Below, piece after piece: positions 11,430 through 61,781 of a stretch of DNA of 64,000 nucleotides. How positions within the stretch are numbered: position 1 is the stretch's first letter; every line of letters starts with the position of its first letter. This DNA is from Rivibacter subsaxonicus (GTDB lineage: Bacteria; Pseudomonadota; Gammaproteobacteria; Burkholderiales; Burkholderiaceae_C), in NCBI RefSeq assembly GCF_004217215.1, contig NZ_SHKP01000004.1, forward strand, positions 124,001-188,000, written 5' to 3'. The position numbers were made by a program, and so were the translations under genes. A model generated the notes under the pieces. That model worked only from the letters and a program-made list of their open reading frames with translations. It ran no database searches and was not told the origin of the DNA.

Positions 11430-14161
11430 TCGCCGCCCCGCTCGTCGTCGGCACCGGCCTGGCCTACCTGCTGCTGCTGTTCGTGGTGGCGGCCTTCGGC
11501 GACCGCCGTGCGCGCGCCGGCCGTTCGCTGATCGGCAACGCCTGGGTCTACGCGCTGTCGATGGGCGTCTACTGCACCGCATGGACCTACTTCGGCAGCG
11601 TCGGCCGCGCCGCCAGCTCGGGTCTGTGGTTCCTGCCGATCTACCTCGGGCCGACGCTGGCGATGCTGCTGGCCTGGATGGTGCTGCGCAAGATGATCCG
11701 CATCGCGCGCGTGCACCGCATCACCTCGATCGCCGACTTCATCGCCAGCCGCCACGGCAAGAGCCGCGCGCTGGCGGCGCTGGTGACGCTGATCGCGCTG
11801 GTCGGCATCCTGCCCTACGTCGCGCTGCAGCTGAAGGCGATCGCCACCGCCTACGCGCTGCTGACCGGTGCCGAGGCGGGCAGCGCCGGTGCCTGGTGGC
11901 GCGACAGCACGCTCTACGTCGCGCTGCTGCTGGCCGGCTTCGCGGTGGCCTTCGGCACCCGCCACCTCGACACCACCGAGCGCCACGAGGGCATGGTCGC
12001 GGCGATCGCGCTCGAGTCGGTGGTCAAGCTGCTGGCCTTCCTGGCGGTCGGCGTCTTCGTCAGCTGGGGCCTCTTCGCCGGGCCGGCCGACCTGTTCGCG
12101 CGGGCGGCGGCGCGGCCCGACCTGAAGCCGCTGCTCGGCCTGGGCACGCAGGGTCCGTTCGCCGGCGGCCAGTGGGCCGCGCTGACGCTGCTGGCGATGC
12201 TGTCGGTGATCTTCCTGCCGCGCCAGTTCCAGGTGATGGTGATCGAGAACGTCGACGAGCGCCATGTGCGGCGCGCCAGCTGGGCCTTCCCGCTCTACCT
12301 GCTGCTGATCAACCTGTTCGTGCTGCCGATCGCGCTCGGCGGGCTGCTGCATTTCGGCCCCGGCGGCGCCGATCCCGAGACCTTCGTGCTCTCGCTGCCG
12401 CTGGCCCAGGGCCAGCAGGGGCTGGCCCTGCTGGCCTTCATCGGCGGCCTGTCGGCGGCCACCGGGATGATCATCGTCGAGGCCACCGCGGTCTCGACGA
12501 TGGTCTGCAACGACCTCGTGATGCCGCTGCTGCTGCGCCTGCGCCGCTTCGGCGGCCGCGCCGGCGCCGACCTGACGGCGCTGCTGCTTGCCGTGCGGCG
12601 CGCGGTGATCGTGCTGCTGCTGCTGCTCGGCTATCTCTACTTCCGTATCGCCGGCGAGGCCTACGCGCTGGTCAGCATCGGCCTGATCAGCTTTGCCGCC
12701 GTGGCCCAGTTCGCGCCGACGCTGCTCGGCGGCATGTACTGGAAGGGCGGCACCCGCGCCGGCGCGCTGGCCGGCCTTGGGGCCGGCTTCGCGCTCTGGG
12801 CCTACACGCTGATGCTGCCGTCGATCGCCAAGTCGGGCTGGATGGACAAGGCCTTTCTCACCGAGGGCCTGTTCGGCATCGGACTGCTGCGCCCCGAGCA
12901 GCTGCTCGGGCTCGCCGGGCTCGACAACCTGACGCATTCGCTGCTGTGGAGCCTGCTGGCCAACGCCGGGCTCTACGTCGCGGTGTCGCTGCTGCGCACG
13001 CCCAGCGCGGCCGAGACCAGCCAGGCGCTGCTGTTCGTCGATGTCTTCGAGCGCGACCACCCCGCAGCCGGCGCCGCGCCGGTGTTCTGGCGCGGTCGGG
13101 CCGAGCTGGCCGAGTTGCAGCGGTTGATGACGCGCTTCCTCGGTGCCGACGCCGCGCAGCGGCTGTTTGCCGACTACGCGCGCCGCAGCGGTGCCGTCGA
13201 CATTGCCGCCATCAGCGCCGACGCGCGCCTGGTGCAGTTCGTCGAGACCCAGCTGGCCGGCGCGATCGGTGGCGCCTCGGCACGCGCGATGGTGGCCTCG
13301 GTGGTGCACGAGGAGCCGCTGGCGATCGACGACGTGATGCGCATCCTCGACGAAAGCTCGCAGCTGCGCGCCTACTCGCAGGCGCTGGAGCAGAAGTCGG
13401 CCTCGCTGGCGCGCGCCGGAGCCGAGCTGCGCGCCGCCAACGAGCAGCTCAAGAGCCTGGACCGGCTCAAGGACGACTTCATGTCCTCGGTGACGCACGA
13501 GCTGCGCACGCCGCTGACCTCGATCCGCGCGCTGGCCGAACTGATGGTCGACGACCCGGCGATGGACGAGGCGCAGCGCCAGCAGTTCCTGGGCCTGGTG
13601 GTGGCCGAGACCGAGCGCCTGACGCGCCTGGTCAACCAGGTGCTCGACATGGCGAAGATCGAGTCGGGCCACGCCGAATGGCGCAGCGCCGATGTCGATC
13701 TGCGCGCGCTGTTGCAGCAGGCGGCGCAGACCACCGCCGAGCTGTTCCACGCGCGCGGCGCGCGGCTCGAGCTGGAGCTGCCCGATGCGGTGCCGACGCT
13801 GCGCACCGACCCCGACCGGCTGACCCAGGTGCTGCTGAACCTGCTGTCCAACGCTGCCAAGTTCGTGCCGGCCGCGGAAGGGCGCGTCGCGCTGCGCTTG
13901 CGGGTCGATCCGCAGCGCGCCACCATCGAGGTGCAGGACAACGGCCCCGGCGTGCCGCCGGAGCAACAGCAGCTGGTGTTCGAGAAGTTCCGCCAGGGCG
14001 GCGACGCGCTGAACCGGCCGCAGGGCACCGGCCTCGGCCTGCCGATCAGCCGCCAGATCGTCGAGCATTTCGGCGGCCGGATGTGGCTGCACTCTGACCC
14101 AGGTCAAGGCGCCTGCTTCGGCTTCGAGTTGCCATGGCGGCATGAGGAGAGTGGCGCATGA
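11426..14161 (+). CDS. Sodium:solute symporter-histidine kinase fusion (CrbS/CbrA-like)
   Basis: A protein of 911 residues. The first about 500 residues form an SSS-type membrane domain with about 13 helices (YCTAWTYFGSVGRAASSG near the start, MVIENVDERHVRRASW centrally). A linker then leads to a HisKA domain with phospho-acceptor His691 in SSVTHELRTPLTS and an HATPase domain with LLNLLSNAAKFVP, DNGPGVPP and GTGLGLPISRQIVEHFGG. This is the architecture of CrbS, the acetate-switch sensor, and of CbrA. Position next to actP favours acetate or a related carboxylate as signal. The stop overlaps the ATG of the receiver gene, its likely partner. Confidence 0.92.
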   Translation: MIAAPLVVGTGLAYLLLLFVVAAFGDRRARAGRSLIGNAWVYALSMGVYCTAWTYFGSVGRAASSGLWFLPIYLGPTLAMLLAWMVLRKMIRIARVHRITSIADFIASRHGKSRALAALVTLIALVGILPYVALQLKAIATAYALLTGAEAGSAGAWWRDSTLYVALLLAGFAVAFGTRHLDTTERHEGMVAAIALESVVKLLAFLAVGVFVSWGLFAGPADLFARAAARPDLKPLLGLGTQGPFAGGQWAALTLLAMLSVIFLPRQFQVMVIENVDERHVRRASWAFPLYLLLINLFVLPIALGGLLHFGPGGADPETFVLSLPLAQGQQGLALLAFIGGLSAATGMIIVEATAVSTMVCNDLVMPLLLRLRRFGGRAGADLTALLLAVRRAVIVLLLLLGYLYFRIAGEAYALVSIGLISFAAVAQFAPTLLGGMYWKGGTRAGALAGLGAGFALWAYTLMLPSIAKSGWMDKAFLTEGLFGIGLLRPEQLLGLAGLDNLTHSLLWSLLANAGLYVAVSLLRTPSAAETSQALLFVDVFERDHPAAGAAPVFWRGRAELAELQRLMTRFLGADAAQRLFADYARRSGAVDIAAISADARLVQFVETQLAGAIGGASARAMVASVVHEEPLAIDDVMRILDESSQLRAYSQALEQKSASLARAGAELRAANEQLKSLDRLKDDFMSSVTHELRTPLTSIRALAELMVDDPAMDEAQRQQFLGLVVAETERLTRLVNQVLDMAKIESGHAEWRSADVDLRALLQQAAQTTAELFHARGARLELELPDAVPTLRTDPDRLTQVLLNLLSNAAKFVPAAEGRVALRLRVDPQRATIEVQDNGPGVPPEQQQLVFEKFRQGGDALNRPQGTGLGLPISRQIVEHFGGRMWLHSDPGQGACFGFELPWRHEESGA

Positions 14162-53975: not shown

Positions 53976-54134
53976 TCTTCGTTAACAAGATGCGGACATC
54001 GAGACGGATGTCTTGGAAGCCGCATGGATGCTTGCTTTCTTCGATATTGAGCGTCGGCCAGACGCTCCTTGAGCAGGCGTCGTGTGCAGTCCGTGTGCAA
54101 ATCCGTTGCACACGCGCTGCCTGAAGGGGAGTTC

Positions 54135-55436
54135 ATGCCTGTTTTTCAGTTGCCCAGTGGAAGCTGGCGCGTTCAGATCCGCCGCAAAGGGTTGCCGCAT
54201 TTCGACAAGGTCTTCGAGACCGAGAACGAGGCGAGGATGGTCGAGGCGGAGCAGTTGAGTCTGCCGGCCCAGGGCTTCCAGCCGGCGGAGATCACGCTGC
54301 GTGATTTGTGGGAGAAGTACGCGGCTTCGAGCGACTTCCGCACGAAGGCGCTGACGACCCAGACGACCGAGAGCGGGCGCATCAAGCCGGTGCTGAGGCA
54401 CCTCGGTGATTACGCCCTCAAGCATCTTGAGAATGCTCCGGGGTTGATCTACGAGTTCATCGACCTGCGTGAGCGAGCGGTTTCGCATCGCACCGGCAAG
54501 CCGCTGTCGTCCACGTCTCGTCGCCTCGAGATCGCAGCGCTGTCGTCGGTAGTGATTTGGGCCAAGAAGCGACGCTACGTCAAAGAGAACTTCGTGCGGA
54601 CCATTTCGAGGCCGGGCCAGGCGAAGCGGACTCGCCGCGTCCCGCCGATCGAGATCGCAAAGATCCAGGCAGGCATGCACCATGAGGATCCGGTGGTTCG
54701 GCAAGCGAGTCGGTTCATGTACTTGATGCGCTGGGTGGGATGCCGGGCCGGCGAGCTGTCGCGGCTCATGTGGTCGAACGTCAACTGGCCGTCTGGCGAT
54801 GCGATGTTTACCAATACGAAGTACAAGGCAGAGAACCGCCGAGTGCATCTGACACCGTCGGTGCTGGAAGTGCTGCGGACGCAGCAGGACTACTCTCTGG
54901 AGTTCTTCCCCGGCTCGCCGTACGTCTTCACGTCGCTCGCCAGGGCATTGGATGCGCCGGAGCCGTTTCGTCCGTTCAACTATTCGGGGGCGGTAAAGAC
55001 CTTGCTTGCCTTCGACATCGTCGCCGCTGGATTCCACACGCACGCCATGAGACGCGAGTTCATCTCGCGCGCGATTGAAGAGGGCATGACTTACGCGAGG
55101 ATCGGCAAGCAGACTGGGCAACGGTCCATTGCATCGGTTCAGATTTACGACCAGGGGGACGTGCTGGCGAAGACGCAGCGCGCGGCGATCGACGAGCACA
55201 CGACCAGTGTGATCACGAGTGACGTATTCCTCGGGTTTGCCCAGATCCTCGGCATGACGCCGAGCCAGCTGCGCGCTGCTCAGAGCGGTCAGCCGGTCTC
55301 GAAGGAGCCGGCGATGTTCACGACTAACGCGGACATCATGGCATCGAGGCGGTCGGTGCAGATCGCACCCACTACAGGTACCCAGGCCAAGAGGCCGCTT
55401 GTTCGACCGCCGCGCGCGCGTCGAAAGGCCGAGTAG
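54135..55436 (+). CDS. Tyrosine recombinase/integrase
   Basis: A protein of 433 residues, from the ATG giving MPVFQLPSG, which has GGGGAG upstream. The N-terminal arm-binding region (WRVQIRRKGLPHFDKVFETENEA) and core-binding domain are followed by the catalytic domain with Arg in WVGCRAGELSRLMW, His-x-x-Arg in HTHAMRREFISRAI, and the nucleophile Tyr in SVQIYDQGD. It sits about 160 bases inside the interrupted tRNA, so it is the likely enzyme for island integration. Its extended C-terminus (about 80 residues past the Tyr) is of unknown use. Confidence 0.92.
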   Translation: MPVFQLPSGSWRVQIRRKGLPHFDKVFETENEARMVEAEQLSLPAQGFQPAEITLRDLWEKYAASSDFRTKALTTQTTESGRIKPVLRHLGDYALKHLENAPGLIYEFIDLRERAVSHRTGKPLSSTSRRLEIAALSSVVIWAKKRRYVKENFVRTISRPGQAKRTRRVPPIEIAKIQAGMHHEDPVVRQASRFMYLMRWVGCRAGELSRLMWSNVNWPSGDAMFTNTKYKAENRRVHLTPSVLEVLRTQQDYSLEFFPGSPYVFTSLARALDAPEPFRPFNYSGAVKTLLAFDIVAAGFHTHAMRREFISRAIEEGMTYARIGKQTGQRSIASVQIYDQGDVLAKTQRAAIDEHTTSVITSDVFLGFAQILGMTPSQLRAAQSGQPVSKEPAMFTTNADIMASRRSVQIAPTTGTQAKRPLVRPPRARRKAE

Positions 55437-55779: not shown

Positions 55780-55818
55780 TGTTCCAGCCTGGTCCATGGG
55801 GCCAGGCGCAAGACCCAA

Positions 55819-55843
55819 GGGCGGCCGTTTGGCCGCCCTCTTT
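55819..55843 (+). terminator. Rho-independent terminator (plus strand)
   Basis: Perfect 8-base stem GGGCGGCC/GGCCGCCC with loop GTTT and tail TCTTT. It closes the integrase transcription unit. Confidence 0.8.
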
Positions 55844-55850
55844 GTGCCCC

Positions 55851-55882
55851 AGAAGAAAGAAGAGGCCCCAGTCGGGGCCTCT
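55851..55882 (-). terminator. Rho-independent terminator (minus strand)
   Basis: Perfect 9-base stem AGAGGCCCC/GGGGCCTCT with a four-base loop. Read on the minus strand it is followed by TCTTTCTTCT. It ends the minus-strand gene at 55936-56595 and any transcript from the RNA region upstream of it. Confidence 0.78.
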
Positions 55883-55935
55883 CGAACTGGCGATAGCGCT
55901 TGGCGCTATGCCGGCTTACCTGCACGCACGCTCGT

Positions 55936-56595
55936 TCAGTGAACGATCCGTGCGTAGTCGTCGATGTCCGACTCGTCCAACTTGACGATCTCCGGCTCGC
56001 CGGCAATCTGCTGTGCAAGCCATGGCCAATGAACCACCAGATTCACCTCTTGAACGATGAACCCCTCGATCGCCGTGCCGATGGCTTCAAGCGATGCCAG
56101 CGACCGCAGCATGACGGCACAGTCAATCACCTTGTCTTCCGGCGCCAACTCCGGCCACTCTTCGACCAGCCTGAGCAGCCCATCGTCCTGCGGCAGATTC
56201 ATCCCGAGCTGCAGGATGTTGACCTTGCCGGTATCCAGCACGTGGCACGCGAAGGTGGCCATGCGCTTGGCGATGACTTCCTCGAGCCAGTTGTAGGACC
56301 GGCTATCGGACATCGGAACGATGTGCCGCCACTGCATACTTCCTGACTGCACGGTCAGCACGCAGTACATCACGCCCGCTCGCGATGGAAACACCGTCAT
56401 CCGTCCGCCGATCGGGACGAAGCCGCTCTCGAGCCTGCGAATCTCCTTCTCCACTGCTGTGAACTCGAGCAAGTAGTCGCTGGGACTACGTGCCGCCGCA
56501 TCGGGTGATGCCGAAGCAAGCTCGACTCTGTCGAGCAGTCCTCCGCAACGCAGCTGCTGCAGCAGCGTGAACATTTGGTTCGTTTGGTCTTTCAT
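55936..56595 (-). CDS. Unknown island protein, 219 aa, downstream of the structured RNA region
   Basis: A protein of 219 residues, acidic, without membrane segments. Visible features are an N-terminal helix (MFTLLQQLRCGGLLDRVEL), a beta-rich middle (SGFVPIGGRMTVFPSRAGVMYCVLTV) and a helical C-terminal half ending in acidic DESDIDDYARIV. I do not recognise a family. It lies directly downstream, on the minus strand, of the hairpin array at 56711-58093 and ends at a strong minus-strand terminator, so it may be co-transcribed with that RNA. Three TTGA repeats at 11-12-base spacing (56611-56637) lie just upstream. Confidence 0.7.
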   Translation of the reverse strand: MKDQTNQMFTLLQQLRCGGLLDRVELASASPDAAARSPSDYLLEFTAVEKEIRRLESGFVPIGGRMTVFPSRAGVMYCVLTVQSGSMQWRHIVPMSDSRSYNWLEEVIAKRMATFACHVLDTGKVNILQLGMNLPQDDGLLRLVEEWPELAPEDKVIDCAVMLRSLASLEAIGTAIEGFIVQEVNLVVHWPWLAQQIAGEPEIVKLDESDIDDYARIVH

Positions 56596-56710
56596 CTCTG
56601 TCCTCTACTGTTGAACTGGTCTTGACGACTGTCTTGACCTGCCCCGTATAGGCACGCTGTTTTCAGAAGTGCACCGAGCACGCTTCGCGTCGCCACACCA
56701 CCGAAAAGCG

Positions 56711-58093
56711 CAGCCGGTGAAGACATGGCTTCACCAGCTGCAAAGAATTGGGGTGTCCCCCGCCAAATCGGCGGGGGACGGGTGCGCGCAATCGCACGCA
56801 CCAGTTCTGTTTGAGTTTCCTTTCTGTCTTTCGATCTTTCTGGTTCTCGCTGCCAAGCAAGACCCATCAATGACCCACGTCGCCGCCAAGCGACGCGGGT
56901 CGGTTTCAGTTCGCAACTGGCATCTCCCGATGCCGTGTCTCATCAACTGCCCGGCGCCTTTCGTCCGCCGTCTTTCGACGGCCGTCATCTCCATGCTTCG
57001 ATCACATCGCATGAAGACTTTCGACGACTACTCAGCTCCGCTCCCCTTCCGACAAGCCTCTTTTTTCGGAGGCGCGGCTTGATGTCAGGTGCCAACCTGA
57101 CGCCTTCGGAAGTTCCCACGTTATTGCCCGGCTACTGCGCTTCGTGACGCCACCACCTCATCAATTGACATAGCTCTGTGAGCTCTCCGGTCGATGTCTC
57201 GACCGCGATTTCCCCCGCCCGATGTTCCATAGCGGCTGGGGTACTCTGTCAACGATTTCCAGTTGTGATCGATGCCCACTTCAGTGGCATCTATGGCTTC
57301 ATGAAGCTCTGCAACGCATCCCCGTTTGGATGCGACTACGTGCTTGAGCTATCCAGCGATCCAGGCGGCTTGCGCCCCCTGGTACCAACGATCCGAGCTT
57401 TCGCCTGATCGCCTCGCCGCGGTTACCCGCGGCGCGTGCAGCCCACACGTGCAGCATGCGTTCAACCGTTGCCGGCTGCCCACAGGCGGTTCTGACGCAG
57501 CATCTGCTGCTCCCGCTTTCACCAGACACAGGTCCGATCCTGGTTACCCAGGTGGCCGTTTCCGTGTCGCCCAACCTCTTCATGGATTGGGTCGAAGGGG
57601 AGTGGTTAACTCCCCAGCGCCCGTCGCCACGCAGCGAGCCTGATTAGAGGCACTGCGCGACGGGCAGTTGTGCTGCAACCGGCTTGGCGGCCGGTGCAGA
57701 GAGAACGAAATTGCGATGGGCGTTGGCGCGCCCCTCGCATCAAAAGTTGCGGTGAGTTGGCGCTTTGCCCGATGAGGTGTCCTGAAGCTTTTGCTTCGAC
57801 CTGCCTCGTGTAGCACAGGCGCCACCGAATCGAGACCGACCATTCGCATGCCTGCTCAGATCGGCCTCGGCGACCTCATCAGCCATTGACATGGCCGATG
57901 AGGTCGCAGCCATGCCTTCGACCAGGCGGCGCATTGAGCGCCATCCGGTCGAACGGGGACGCTGCGCTCCCCGTACCCCTCGCAAGGAACATCTTTAGGT
58001 GTGATTCGATTTCATCGAATCACACGGTGCATTCAGTGCGCGCCTGTGCGGCTCGCCGTGGACATTCGACTGCGGTGCGCGAACACACCGCAG
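56711..58093 (-). ncRNA. Putative very large structured noncoding RNA (at least 27 hairpins), unrecognised class
   Basis: No protein frame is credible here, yet near-perfect local hairpins stand almost end to end. In window coordinates with stem lengths: 58070-58093 (8), 57999-58025 (12), 57953-57974 (7), 57917-57953 (7+5), 57870-57907 (11+5), 57784-57797 (5, enclosed by 57758-57763/57819-57824), 57712-57739 (5+5), 57673-57699 (4+6), 57619-57665 (9+4+4), 57597-57615 (7), 57539-57552 (5), 57497-57510 (5), 57415-57434 (8), 57361-57382 (5+3), 57315-57334 (7), 57271-57291 (6+3), 57188-57205 (7), 57172-57184 (5), 57084-57101 (7), 57053-57081 (6), 56967-56982 (6), 56919-56934 (6), 56907-56919 (5), 56872-56901 (5+6), 56781-56802 (6), 56755-56779 (10), 56711-56740 (4+7). 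Read on the minus strand, five tetraloops are GNRA (GUAA twice, GCAA, GAAA, GGGA) and three A-C mismatches become G-U. Exact ends and promoter are not determined. It resembles ornate large RNAs such as GOLLD and ROOL in style only. Confidence 0.72.
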
Positions 58094-58203
58094 CGTGCCT
58101 ACACGACGCATCTCAACTGCAACGCTGCGCTGTGCAACCCCTGCCGAAGCTCTTCCCCGTCGGGACCTCGTATGTCCGCATCCCGTCCTCGCAGACTGCC
58201 TGC

Positions 58204-59004
58204 ATGCGGATCGTCCTGGAGACCGTGGAGCGGGGCTCGTCTTGGTGGTCGACAGGCACCGTTGCGGTCGACAAGGCGGTTCCGCTGTCGCTCAAGTTCG
58301 CAGAGCTATATCAGACCGATCTGACGCCCGCACAGCGCACGGCTGTCCGGGCAAAGGGCAGGGCTTCGGCGCAGCTGCTGCTCTGGCCGGTTGACGTGAC
58401 CTGCTTTCGCTGGTGGCTGCTCGCGTCGGACGGCCGTGGGCTGGTGCACGAGCGAGAGAAGCTTCAGCACGCGCATCGCTCGGGCGAACGGGTCACCTTC
58501 GGGGATCAGTACAAGCTCGTGCACCGGCAGCGACAGCGCGAAGCCGGTGGCGGCAAACGGTGGACGTGGGCGATGACGCCGCAGCGCTTCGAGCAGCACT
58601 TGAAGATGATTCGCCAGTTGTCCCGTTCTCATGGCCCGGGATCCGGCGTCGGCGACCGGTTGCTGACGTACCTTGATGCGGTCAAGAGGATGCCCGGCTA
58701 CGCCGGAATTCGAGAGCAGAAGTTAGAGCTGCAGCAGGCTGGGCGCGAGGCCTGGCAGCGGACGCATCGAGCCGACCAGGCGTTCCCTTGGACAGAGCGC
58801 ATTCCCTACCTGACTAAGTCCTTCGCGTGCTACCACGCGCCGGAGCCGCTCAGGCTCGACACGCTCGCCAACATGATGCAAAGAGAAGCCGCGGCGCGCG
58901 GTGCTGCTGCGGCAGCGACCGCGGCTGGCTTTCTGGACGCCTTCGGACAGGATGCGGGTGGCGAACCAGTTGCGCCGATGGATGAAGTCGCAGACCCGGT
59001 TTGA
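58204..59004 (+). CDS. Unknown island protein, 266 aa
   Basis: I start this at the ATG giving MRIVLETVERGSSWW; the frame continues upstream to 57886, but that part runs through hairpins of the putative RNA and is unlikely to be coding. The protein is basic in the middle (KLVHRQRQREAGGGKRWTWAMTPQRFEQHLK) with several Trp residues and an Ala-rich C-terminal helix (AAARGAAAAATAAGF). No membrane segment or known motif is seen. It is divergent from the putative RNA, and the about 110 bases between should hold both promoters. Function unknown; nucleic-acid binding would fit the charge. Confidence 0.65.
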   Translation: MRIVLETVERGSSWWSTGTVAVDKAVPLSLKFAELYQTDLTPAQRTAVRAKGRASAQLLLWPVDVTCFRWWLLASDGRGLVHEREKLQHAHRSGERVTFGDQYKLVHRQRQREAGGGKRWTWAMTPQRFEQHLKMIRQLSRSHGPGSGVGDRLLTYLDAVKRMPGYAGIREQKLELQQAGREAWQRTHRADQAFPWTERIPYLTKSFACYHAPEPLRLDTLANMMQREAAARGAAAAATAAGFLDAFGQDAGGEPVAPMDEVADPV

Positions 59005-59054: not shown

Positions 59055-59351
59055 TCAGCGGGTGCGCCTGGAGTCGGAGGTGTTGGCCCAGATCGTTGCT
59101 TGCCGCTCGGTCAGGACCGATGAAGCGAGGCGCCACCGAATCGTTGCCGTCGTCGCATCGACAACAGCGACTTCGAGACGGTCGCCGACCAGCCGGACCG
59201 CGATGGCCCTGCCGTCGCGCAGGGCGAGGGGCCGGGTGGCCCAGAGTGTCTGGGCTGCGGGCCTGCGGCCTGGGTTGGCAGGACGGGAAGACGGCTTGGA
59301 CTCGCCGGGGGTGTCGACGGCGACCGAGGCTCTGGACGTACGAATGTGCAT
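59055..59351 (-). CDS. Unknown small protein, 98 aa, with ribosome binding site inside a long hairpin
   Basis: ATG at 59351 gives MHIRTSRASVAV, with GGAG five bases upstream. The N-terminal 35 residues are Ser/Pro/Arg-rich and probably disordered. The C-terminal part (LALRDGRAIAVRLVGDRLEVAVVD, then ATIRWRLASSVLTERQ) looks like a small beta-rich domain. Convergent with the gene at 58204-59004. No family recognised. Its leader forms the hairpin at 59353-59418. Confidence 0.5.
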   Translation of the reverse strand: MHIRTSRASVAVDTPGESKPSSRPANPGRRPAAQTLWATRPLALRDGRAIAVRLVGDRLEVAVVDATTATIRWRLASSVLTERQATIWANTSDSRRTR

Positions 59352-59352
59352 G

Positions 59353-59418
59353 TGATCTCCAAGGTGACGCAACTCAGCGAACACACCTGCGGTGTGTTGC
59401 TGTTGCGTCTGGAGATCA
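59353..59418 (-). promoter_or_regulatory. 66-base hairpin covering the ribosome binding site of the 98-aa gene
   Basis: Paired segments are TGATCTCCA/TGGAGATCA (9), GACGCAA/TTGCGTC (7), CAGC/GCTG (4) and AACACACC/GGTGTGTT (8) around a three-base loop: 28 pairs with small bulges. On the minus strand the 3' arm contains the GGAG that would serve the ATG at 59351, so the hairpin would hide it. Translational control is inferred. Confidence 0.65.
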
Positions 59419-60089
59419 GCGCGGGCTACATGGTCGTCGTGGCTCAAATGCGGGCAACGAGTGTCACACCGATCGCCCTACGGGTTGCCCCGCAGGCGAG
59501 GGAGCGCTTGGGCAAGCACGAATTTTCCGTATGAGACGGTGATCAGCGGCACGCCTGCCGATCTCGGTCGCCTTGAACCATCAGTTCGAGAATGTTGTCG
59601 GTGGCAAGGATGCTCTCGATTAGCTGCGGTCGACCGCCTGCTGACGCTCTTCCGTCCTGATCTCACACGCGGCTCCAGACTGGGTGCACCCGTTCGCAGT
59701 GAACGTCCGTAGGACAGCTTGGTGTCCATAGGAGCCGGCGGCGGCGTAGACACGGTGAATGCGTAGGCATTGGCAGTGCTTTCGGGCCTACCTCCCGAGA
59801 CGAGGCGGCAGTGCTTTGCGGAAACTGTAAGAACCGTGATCGTCTGATCGAGCCGTCTGGAGCTGCCTTACTGCCACCGGCGTTAACGCATGTGCCGAGC
59901 GTGCGATCAAACGGCCGCGACATCCAACATAAGCAGAGGGGTCTGCAACTGCGGGGATCGTCGCTGGCGGAGGGCAACTTGCACCGGAGTAATGCGGCCT
60001 ACCGGAGAGCATCAAAGGCCCGCCTGCAGCGCGTGCGTCAATTACCATCACTGAACAATGGCCGGCAAACGCGCCACCGGGGAGAGGGC
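59419..60089. other. Non-coding island stretch, little recognised
   Basis: No convincing gene is visible between the 66-base hairpin and the DUF262 gene. A short direct repeat GGCAGTGCTTT occurs near 59777 and 59808. GC is lower than in the core genome. A GGAGAGG ribosome binding site at the end belongs to the DUF262 gene. Confidence 0.4.
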
Positions 60090-61781
60090 ATGACCAAGAA
60101 GATCAGCGGAGCCGAGTTTCCGCTAGCGAAGATATTCAGCTCCGACTTTGACTACGCAATTCCGTCCTACCAGCGGCCGTATGCGTGGACGGAGGTGCAG
60201 GCGGGGGAGCTGTTCTCGGACCTAGTGGACTTCTTCACCAAGGAGAAAGACGACACCTACTTCCTGGGCAGCATCGTGCTCATCAAGGAAGAAGGCAAGC
60301 CGCACGCCGAGGTCATCGACGGGCAGCAGCGGCTGACCACTTTGACCATTCTGCTTGCGGCGCTGACAACCCAGTTCTCGGGCGAGCTTCGTGCGGACTT
60401 CGAGAACTACATCCGCGAGCCCGGCCGCGCCTCGCAAGGCCTGAAGCCCAAGCCACGGCTTGAACTGCGCGAACGTGACCGGCAGTTCTTCGCGGACTAC
60501 ATCCAAGGCCTCAAGTTGACCGAACTGGTGGCGCTTGATCCAGCGCAGGTGGACAACGAGTCGCAACGCAACGTGCGGCGCAATGCCGAGGTAATGCTGC
60601 AGCGCCTGAAGGCGACCTTCGGCGAGGACACGGACCGCCTGTGCGAGTTCGGCGCCTTTCTGGTTCAGCGCTGCTTCCTGGTGGCGGTGTCGACGCCCAG
60701 CCAGCAGTCGGCCTTCCGCGTGTTCTCGGTGCTCAACAGCCGGGGCCTGGACCTGCTGCCCACAGACATCATCAAGTCCGATGTCATCGGCAGCATCAAG
60801 CAAGTCCACCAGGAAGACTTCACCGAGATCTGGGAAGAGCTGGAAGTCGAGACCGGGCGCGACGGCTTCGCGGAGGTCTTCGGCCACATCCGCATGATCT
60901 ACGCGAAAGAGAAGGCCCGCCGTTCACTGCTGGAAGAGTTCCGCGAGCGCGTTATCCCCAAGGTGGGTTCGGCAGAGGACCTAGTCTCCAAGGTAGTGGA
61001 GCCGTACACCCGAGCCTACCTCATCGCCAAGCACTGCCAGTACATCTCGACTTCGAACGCGGCGGAGATCAACGCGCTGTTGAAGTGGCTGAACCGCATC
61101 GACAACTCGGACTGGCTGCCCTCGGCGATGCAGTTCCTGGCCGAGCATGAGAACGACGCGGCCTATGTGCACTTCTTCTTGCGCAAGCTGGAGCGCCTGG
61201 CCGCGTGCATGCACATCTGCGGCTACGACGTAAACGCGCGGATCGAGCGCTACGCCACCTTGCTACGGGCGCTGGATAGGAGCCACTCGATGGCGTCGCC
61301 CGTGGAGGCCGTCGAATTGACGGCCTTTGAGCAGTCGGCGCTGCGACGCGTGCTGCAGAGCGACATCTACCTGATGACTGCAAGGCGCCGCAACTACCTG
61401 ATCCTGCGGTTGGACTCGTTCCTGGTGGATGGTGCGGCCACCTATGACCCCACCGTTCTGACCATCGAGCACGTGCTGCCGCAGACAGTGGTCGAGGGCT
61501 CAGTGTGGGCCACGCAGTGGCCGAACTTCAGCGATCGCATCCTCTGGCTCCACCGCCTAGCCAACCTGGTGCCGCTGACGCAGCGTCGGAACTCACAGGC
61601 ACAGAACTACGACTTCGAGCGCAAGAAGAAGGCCTACTTCGGCGGCAAGCAAGGCGTGTCGTCATACGCGCTGACCACCCAGGTCTTGAACACTGCGGCC
61701 TGGACACCGGCGGTCGTCGAGCAGCGTCAAGCCGACCTGTTGGAGATGCTGAGCACCAAGTGGGAGTTGGCGGAAACGTGA
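60090..61781 (+). CDS. DUF262/DUF1524 protein (GmrSD-like restriction factor)
   Basis: A protein of 563 residues, starting at the ATG after GGAGAGG. The N-terminal DUF262 (ParB-like NTPase) domain has IPSYQRPYAWTEVQAGELFSDL, YFLGSIVLI and the hallmark VIDGQQRLTTL (Asp77). The C-terminal DUF1524 domain is an HNH nuclease with TIEHVLPQ (His461) and HRLANLVPLTQRRNSQAQN. GmrSD enzymes cleave glucosylated hydroxymethylcytosine phage DNA; many DUF262/DUF1524 proteins are phage-defence genes with other targets. Island location and a defence-like neighbour fit. Which modification it reads is unknown. Confidence 0.87.
   Translation: MTKKISGAEFPLAKIFSSDFDYAIPSYQRPYAWTEVQAGELFSDLVDFFTKEKDDTYFLGSIVLIKEEGKPHAEVIDGQQRLTTLTILLAALTTQFSGELRADFENYIREPGRASQGLKPKPRLELRERDRQFFADYIQGLKLTELVALDPAQVDNESQRNVRRNAEVMLQRLKATFGEDTDRLCEFGAFLVQRCFLVAVSTPSQQSAFRVFSVLNSRGLDLLPTDIIKSDVIGSIKQVHQEDFTEIWEELEVETGRDGFAEVFGHIRMIYAKEKARRSLLEEFRERVIPKVGSAEDLVSKVVEPYTRAYLIAKHCQYISTSNAAEINALLKWLNRIDNSDWLPSAMQFLAEHENDAAYVHFFLRKLERLAACMHICGYDVNARIERYATLLRALDRSHSMASPVEAVELTAFEQSALRRVLQSDIYLMTARRRNYLILRLDSFLVDGAATYDPTVLTIEHVLPQTVVEGSVWATQWPNFSDRILWLHRLANLVPLTQRRNSQAQNYDFERKKKAYFGGKQGVSSYALTTQVLNTAAWTPAVVEQRQADLLEMLSTKWELAET

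Follow-up and report, generated by a model that had tools for sequence, protein, structure and literature searches.

Locus and genomic neighbourhood

The window is a 64,000-nucleotide stretch of Rivibacter subsaxonicus DNA, and all positions refer to it. Between 56711 and 58093 it contains an array of hairpins flanked by two divergent frames. The left frame (55936 to 56595, minus strand), which follows the RNA directly on its strand and may or may not be part of the system, encodes a 219-aa protein with no match in Pfam, NCBIfam, PHROGs or PADLOC. The right frame (P0001, 58132 to 59004, plus strand; 290 aa from a GTG start that we chose) was assigned to acpG on the basis of its homologues, which lie beside the same RNA, and a profile match to TTHC007. 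A tyrosine integrase gene lies further left (54069 to 55436, plus strand; PF00589, E 1.3e-13; phrog_1) and presumably belongs to an integrated element. From the sequence evidence below, the locus is almost certainly a circularly permuted (CP) group II ribozyme together with AcpG. The ribozyme occupies about 56705 to 58110 on the minus strand, as judged from conservation upstream of acpG, minus-strand folding, covariation and a covariance model of domains 5 and 6 (D5-D6), and its 3' end is presumed to be a terminator-like hairpin.

Other features were seen in the same neighbourhood. A GmrSD-type (type IV restriction) protein is encoded beside the module at 59811 to 61781 on the plus strand (PF03235, PF07510; PADLOC Orf5/HEC-06). 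A strong, isolated inverted repeat (z about -6 on either strand) lies at about 59351-59450, in the interval that separates the end of acpG at 59004 from the start of the restriction gene. Strong hairpins at about 55800-55900, between the integrase and the 219-aa gene, have z-scores of -3 to -4.5 and look terminator-like by eye.

Hairpin density and folding

The initial annotation had read the array as a giant structured noncoding RNA. The hairpins it singled out all fold at their places, with 12 pairs at 57999-58025, 11+5 at 57870-57907, 9+4+4 at 57619-57665 and 10 at 56755-56779. We counted non-overlapping perfect stems with loops of 3 to 9, using 40 equal stretches elsewhere in the window as controls. 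Ten stems of at least 7 pairs were found in 56711-58093 (control mean 2.2, maximum 7), and 26 of at least 5 pairs (control mean 16.7, sd 4.2, maximum 30). Since the bare short-stem count is only about 2 sd high, it is the long stems that exceed chance; a density far above chance was thus confirmed for stems of at least 7 pairs and reduced to a modest excess for short ones. The folding z-score in 100-nt windows from 56650 to 58100 was often between -2 and -7.7 on either strand, with some windows near 0, while 212 control windows averaged -0.3 on the plus strand (sd 1.1) and -0.4 on the minus strand (sd 1.2). As annotated, the array holds no credible long protein frame, the exception being the 5' overhang of the AcpG frame, which is open back to 57814.

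The main reading stood: the array corresponds to a conserved minus-strand RNA some 1.4 kb long, from about 58110 to 56705, and its borders agree closely with the extent of the ribozyme. The functional strand, identified from minus-strand folding and covariation, had been invisible to the initial annotation. Its carriage by mobile elements was likewise supported.

OLE, GOLLD and ROOL, with which the array had been compared, are Rfam families. The Rfam scan called for at the time was run with Rfam 15 and gave no match in the window at curated thresholds; a permissive scan of 55800-58400 returned four matches, each under the curated score of its family. Kinship with OLE, GOLLD or ROOL was rejected on the missing Rfam 15 match and on the recovery of published CP group II RNAs by our covariance model.

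Conserved structure and class membership

CP group II ribozymes, formerly called "T-large", were described by Roth et al. in 2021 (PMC8637638). In these RNAs D5-D6 precede D1, the splice motifs are GGGCG and NU, and three pseudoknots and the stems P1 and P2 are particular to the class; in vitro ribozyme activity and expression have been published for other members of the class, and the available text leaves the roles of both RNA and AcpG open (PMC8637638). The array, annotated as a possible new class, is a new member of this already known one.

The DNA upstream of acpG homologues is conserved. When 38 such regions were compared, that of the window matched 22 of the others; two regions had no partners (L023, L037), one had a single partner (L031) and three matched through their coding part only (L094, L101, L102). 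An alignment of 24 sequences gave a better fold on the minus strand (-460) than on the plus strand (-377). The minus-strand structure contained 634 GU against 144 AC wobble cells and the plus-strand structure 255 against 298; because the folding programme favours GU, the counts are biased in favour of whichever strand was folded, and the difference is still large. GAAA loops recur on the minus strand. Read from its sequence, the E. coli relative has a terminator-like hairpin and a T run on the RNA strand. In the window an intrinsic terminator-like hairpin (56709 to 56742, minus strand) has 14 pairs followed by CTTTTC and is the probable RNA 3' end; a terminator search found one on the stretch against an average of 1.8 in shuffles, so the match alone is not significant. 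Taken with the strand evidence, the terminator-like hairpins in the window and in the E. coli relative indicate that the RNA runs away from acpG. No sigma-70-like promoter was found in 56550-58300 on either strand.

Near the 5' side of the RNA stands a hairpin that recalls D5 of group II introns: it starts with AGC, bulges by two bases and has a core that does not vary. The hairpin that follows has a bulged A seven bases before AAU and recalls D6. The 42 sequences aligned over this part came from a D5-D6 scan of 64 sources, of which 54 gave a match and 46 were distinct; three chance matches (L023, L036, L104) and one interrupted locus (L121) were left out. The latter, at 12507-14031 on Pandoraea pPO70-4, has its D5-D6 split in two by an IS256-family transposase gene.

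Across the 42 sequences 94.6% of D5-D6 cells were paired and 19 of the 23 pairs change on both sides, so that homologues with compensatory changes, which the initial annotation had named as a check, do exist. Five measures were compared with 500 shuffles, none of which came up to the real alignment on a single one, and sliding the partners lowered the pairing to at most 54.5%. Pairing reached 99.4% of cells in D5 and 100% in the outer D6 helix, and the bulged-A column of D6 is invariant. The D5 bulge is UG in 33 sequences and UC in 9; the triad is AGC in 39, CGC in two (the window and L026) and AGT in one. In the window and its relatives D5-D6 lie upstream of D1, and GGGCG and NU stand in reversed order around a short linker (four rows of this survey were chance matches: L101, L108 and L110 in reverse, and L116 forward).

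The D5-D6 covariance model also matched RNAs of two plasmids named in PMC8637638, neither of which is in the model: pTT8 at 34.2 bits, where the match adjoins and diverges from TTHC007, and pPNAP05 at 84.1 bits. The model scored 72.8 bits in the genome from which the window comes, the window being one of its 42 sequences. Given the pairing tests and the model and profile matches to published members, the locus belongs to the class with as much certainty as sequence alone can give.

The window copy has the parts expected of the class, all on the minus strand. The D5-like hairpin (57628 to 57659), placed by alignment and pair counts, has a UC bulge and CGC for the usual AGC triad, as in the close relative L026; the partner has changed as well and the pair is kept. 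In the D6-like hairpin (57586 to 57622) the bulged base is A57592, and the 3' splice site, predicted to follow 57586, is seven bases away. The reversed splice sites, marked by the GGGCG and NU motifs, enclose a 13-nt linker (57573 to 57585) that is predicted to form the RNA circle. The D1-D4 part (56750 to 57572) opens on the GGGCG of the 5' splice site (57572-57568) and contains blocks conserved in relatives.

The window copy thus shares with published CP group II ribozymes the permuted order of D5-D6 before D1, an AGC-type triad, a UN bulge, the bulged A of D6, GGGCG and NU around the linker, and an acpG beside the RNA, usually divergent. It differs in its CGC triad and in its 13-nt linker, compared with published circles of 32 to 86 nt (50, 86, 32 and 35 nt in four species; PMC8637638). 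Linkers of our relatives range from 11 to 70 nt. The 9-pair helix annotated at 57619-57665 overlaps both D5 and D6 in the window and could compete with them. Given the triad, the linker and the competing helix, the window copy may or may not be active. Compared with canonical group II introns, the CP class has the same RNA catalytic domains and differs in domain order and in having no intron-encoded reverse transcriptase.

Fold and kinship of AcpG

A profile of the P0001 family matched TTHC007, the published AcpG, at 45.7 bits, and the next protein among the 8 searched of the 14 annotated on pTT8 scored -0.4. No match to AcpG was found in Pfam, NCBIfam, PHROGs or PADLOC, and the available text of PMC8637638 reports no homology for it. 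A known defence protein was rejected as its identity, the same four libraries being without a match. A phage origin was likewise rejected: INPHARED contained no relative, and of 49 and 64 pattern matches in IMG/VR none was confirmed.

AlphaFold models had a mean pLDDT of 77.5 for the window AcpG and 93.7 for a relative. Both models aligned best to a group II intron reverse transcriptase, the window protein with Z 9.1 (rmsd 4.5, 198 residues aligned) and the relative with Z 8.9 (rmsd 3.5, 167 aligned), where by the aligner's own notes a Z of 7-8 is common. The next structural matches were G2L4, DRT9 and retron enzymes, and Prp8 stood at rank 12 in the list for the window protein only. Foldseek gave no match to the models at E up to 0.001 (best E 0.03). 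With hhalign, the probability against five group II-type reverse transcriptases, none of which is over the TIGR04416 cut-off, was 0.3%. The YxDD motif was present in none of 43 AcpG alignment rows, in which some sequences are counted twice, and the group II reverse transcriptase family had no match in the window's own genome at E 0.001.

On these models a maturase-like fold for AcpG is fairly probable; the protein is probably reverse-transcriptase-like in fold and catalytically dead, and could serve as a maturase. The predicted fold resembles that of the group II intron reverse transcriptase/maturase, from which AcpG differs in having no YxDD motif and in failing to match its sequence profiles. 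As the available text of PMC8637638 gives no homology for AcpG, the fold is a new lead as far as our literature search goes. If AcpG is indeed a dead maturase with this fold, it would offer a parallel to Prp8.

Co-occurrence of the RNA and AcpG

Relatives of P0001 were found in 13 of 299 relatives' genomes, in 8 of 369 genomes of the class and in 32 of 399 of the order (Burkholderiales, as its named loci show), the own genome being counted in each. Plasmid records with AcpG numbered 22 with P0001 as query and 28 with the E. coli homologue. Of the order's 399 genomes, 25 gave a match to the RNA model, 32 had AcpG and 24 had both, with the RNA alone only in G227; as some of these genomes supplied sequences for the model, this co-occurrence is not a blind test. 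AcpG lay on the same contig at 27 of the 28 RNA places, divergent at a distance of 245-1140 nt in 21 cases and on the same strand 1.1-2.0 kb upstream in 6. RNAs without AcpG have also been reported (PMC8637638). In Novacetimonas hansenii C110 the pair is split: AcpG is on a 12.3-kb plasmid without a detectable ribozyme, and the ribozyme on a 6.3-kb plasmid without AcpG.

Relaxases and secretion genes on AcpG plasmids

MOB-suite typed 27 of the 28 AcpG plasmid records, 10 of which are near-identical E. coli plasmids, as non-mobilizable and one as mobilizable. This typing is weak on its own, since Providencia pYPR25-2 is typed non-mobilizable and yet carries a 34%-identical homologue of a presumed MOBC protein. 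The relaxase search covered PF03432, PF08751, PF03389 and the MOBC-type protein. PF03432 was absent from all 14 AcpG plasmids searched, and PF08751 and PF03389 from all 15. The presumed MOBC protein matched in one of 15, a weak hit in Sulfuriferula (E 5e-8, 23% identity), and in both sister plasmids used as controls. T4SS genes were found on at least four AcpG plasmids (E. coli pFHI_NMBU_11_03, Gluconacetobacter pGDIPal5I, pBN5 and pPO70-4), several others having been seen only in part.

Relatives of the E. coli plasmid's VirB4 were found in 148 plasmid records; outside E. coli the closest are 54-55% identical. One sister backbone, that of K. aerogenes pIIIF7SW-P1_1 (MOBC by typing), runs coupling protein (minus strand), a 1-kb gap, a 237-aa protein and VirB11. 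We infer that the 237-aa gene, hypothetical in the record, encodes the MOBC relaxase. The E. coli plasmid, whose coupling protein is 46% identical to that of Klebsiella, has the ribozyme, AcpG (230 aa), coupling protein and VirB11. On pGDIPal5I the order is coupling protein (minus strand), ribozyme, AcpG and a VirB11-type ATPase, and on pBN5 coupling protein (minus strand), ribozyme and AcpG. The ribozyme-AcpG pair in the conjugative plasmids thus occupies the place of the sister backbone's presumed MOBC relaxase, to which the E. coli AcpG is unrelated by BLASTP.

In E. coli the element was present in 21 of 5426 genomes, in 15 large-plasmid records and on seven plasmids of 2934-3082 bp, which carry 38-51% of the query. 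One strain has both plasmids (chance about 0.02, clonality ignored). Three of the seven small plasmids were inspected and contained RepL and hypothetical genes only; AcpG was not found on the two 3-kb plasmids present in the plasmid collection. The conjugative placement, these small plasmids and the split pair of strain C110 together suggest a ribozyme locus that is needed in cis and an AcpG that acts in trans.

A possible role in plasmid mobilisation

Our favoured, unproven reading is that the ribozyme-AcpG pair serves mobilisation, and we advance it tentatively. The locus itself, whose identity is far more certain, is read as a minus-strand gene that points away from acpG and ends at the hairpin 56742-56709. 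Its RNA has D5 and D6 on the 5' side and D1-D4 after them, which puts the splice sites inside it with their order reversed. If this RNA behaves like the published members do in vitro, A57592, the bulged base, would attack the 5' splice site before GGGCG (57572), and the freed end would next attack the 3' splice site that follows 57586; the products would be a branched RNA and a small circle, here of 13 nt. AcpG, with its predicted catalytically dead reverse-transcriptase-like fold, would be the maturase-like partner. The pair would form a mobilisation module in place of relaxase and oriT, the locus acting in cis and AcpG in trans.

How far the RNA itself would act on DNA is another matter. RNA-catalysed DNA processing seems to us quite unlikely. 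The same doubt attaches to the fuller proposal of an RNA-based relaxosome. On that view the pair would be a ribonucleoprotein derived from group II introns, in which the RNA perhaps helps to process DNA and the dead-reverse-transcriptase protein resembles the RT-like part of spliceosomal Prp8, and it would have replaced protein relaxase and oriT in conjugative and hitch-hiking plasmids alike. As a target in the own carrier DNA, the circle junction (linker obtained from 17 of 20 sources) was not enriched, with 9 8-mers against 13.7 expected, 3 9-mers against 3.8, 2 10-mers against 0.95 and no 12-mers against 0.1, which leaves nicking by simple reversal of back-splicing at the junction sequence without support. 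This result counts against mobilisation, as do the weak MOBC-like match on one AcpG plasmid, the many copies in islands or small plasmids where no T4SS gene was seen, and the conservation of catalysis, for which an oriT function would not account by itself. The mobilisation module of SGI1 with its sgm-sRNA (PMC9299015) is alike in needing an RNA and having no classical relaxase; it differs in its small RNA and the tyrosine-recombinase-like MpsA, and we cite it as an analogy only.

A role in plasmid maintenance, exclusion or gene regulation in place of transfer, for example through cleavage of a target RNA by the branched product, is a serious possibility. Many carriers are small plasmids or chromosomal islands on which no T4SS gene was seen, and PMC8637638 discusses effects on transcripts in cis and trans. 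Such a role does not predict the relaxase-slot and satellite patterns, and a deletion quoted in PMC8637638 perhaps excludes a replication role on pTT8.

It is rather unlikely that the pair is a selfish passenger that persists for its own sake, its adjacency to T4SS genes being incidental. The flanking genes do vary, no neighbour cluster being common to more than 10 of 51 loci apart from AcpG and frames over the ribozyme, and no mobility mechanism is known for the RNA alone according to the available text of PMC8637638. That distant plasmids carry the pair between their T4CP and T4SS genes argues the other way, as does the retention of catalytic features in divergent sequence.

That the stretch works as single-stranded DNA, as an oriT or single-strand origin with the RNA secondary, is very unlikely. 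The wobble-pair strand asymmetry would fit this too, and the 3-kb E. coli plasmids keep the stretch in cis; against it stand the terminator-like 3' ends, the group II catalytic features and the published in vitro activity and expression of other members (PMC8637638). An unrelated new RNA class, compatible with the missing Rfam match, is refuted by the model and profile matches to the published pTT8, pPNAP05 and TTHC007 and has a negligible probability.

Large natural RNA catalysts are few, and CP group II ribozymes, one such class, have had no assigned role since they were described in 2021. Our literature search found no paper on CP group II RNA besides PMC8637638, in whose available text "oriT" is absent and "relaxase" and "conjugat" appear once each, one of these passages being a reference title. 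The predicted AcpG fold, the absence of three relaxase families together with the relaxase slot, and the 3-kb E. coli ribozyme plasmids without detected acpG are offered as new leads. A mobilisation role is directly testable in laboratory E. coli, where a conjugative plasmid of about 30 kb and a 3-kb satellite share the ribozyme. If the pair does replace relaxase and oriT, plasmids typed as non-mobilizable are mobile after all, and an intron-derived ribonucleoprotein has taken over a central step of horizontal gene transfer.

Further carriers

Some occurrences lie apart from the set above. In Acinetobacter, 68-75 nt of the ribozyme matched in 14 plasmids (L112 and 13 others), none of them among the 28 AcpG records. 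Pseudoalteromonas TAC125 pMtBL (L120, 4086 bp) has, besides a match to D5-D6, an AcpG homologue that is weak (E 2e-7). In Janthinobacterium (L088, 2557-8572) a 5.9-kb element lies between two tRNA matches of like score and carries an integrase, a CP ribozyme, acpG, an HTH_17 protein and a Rep_1-like protein below the Pfam cut-off.
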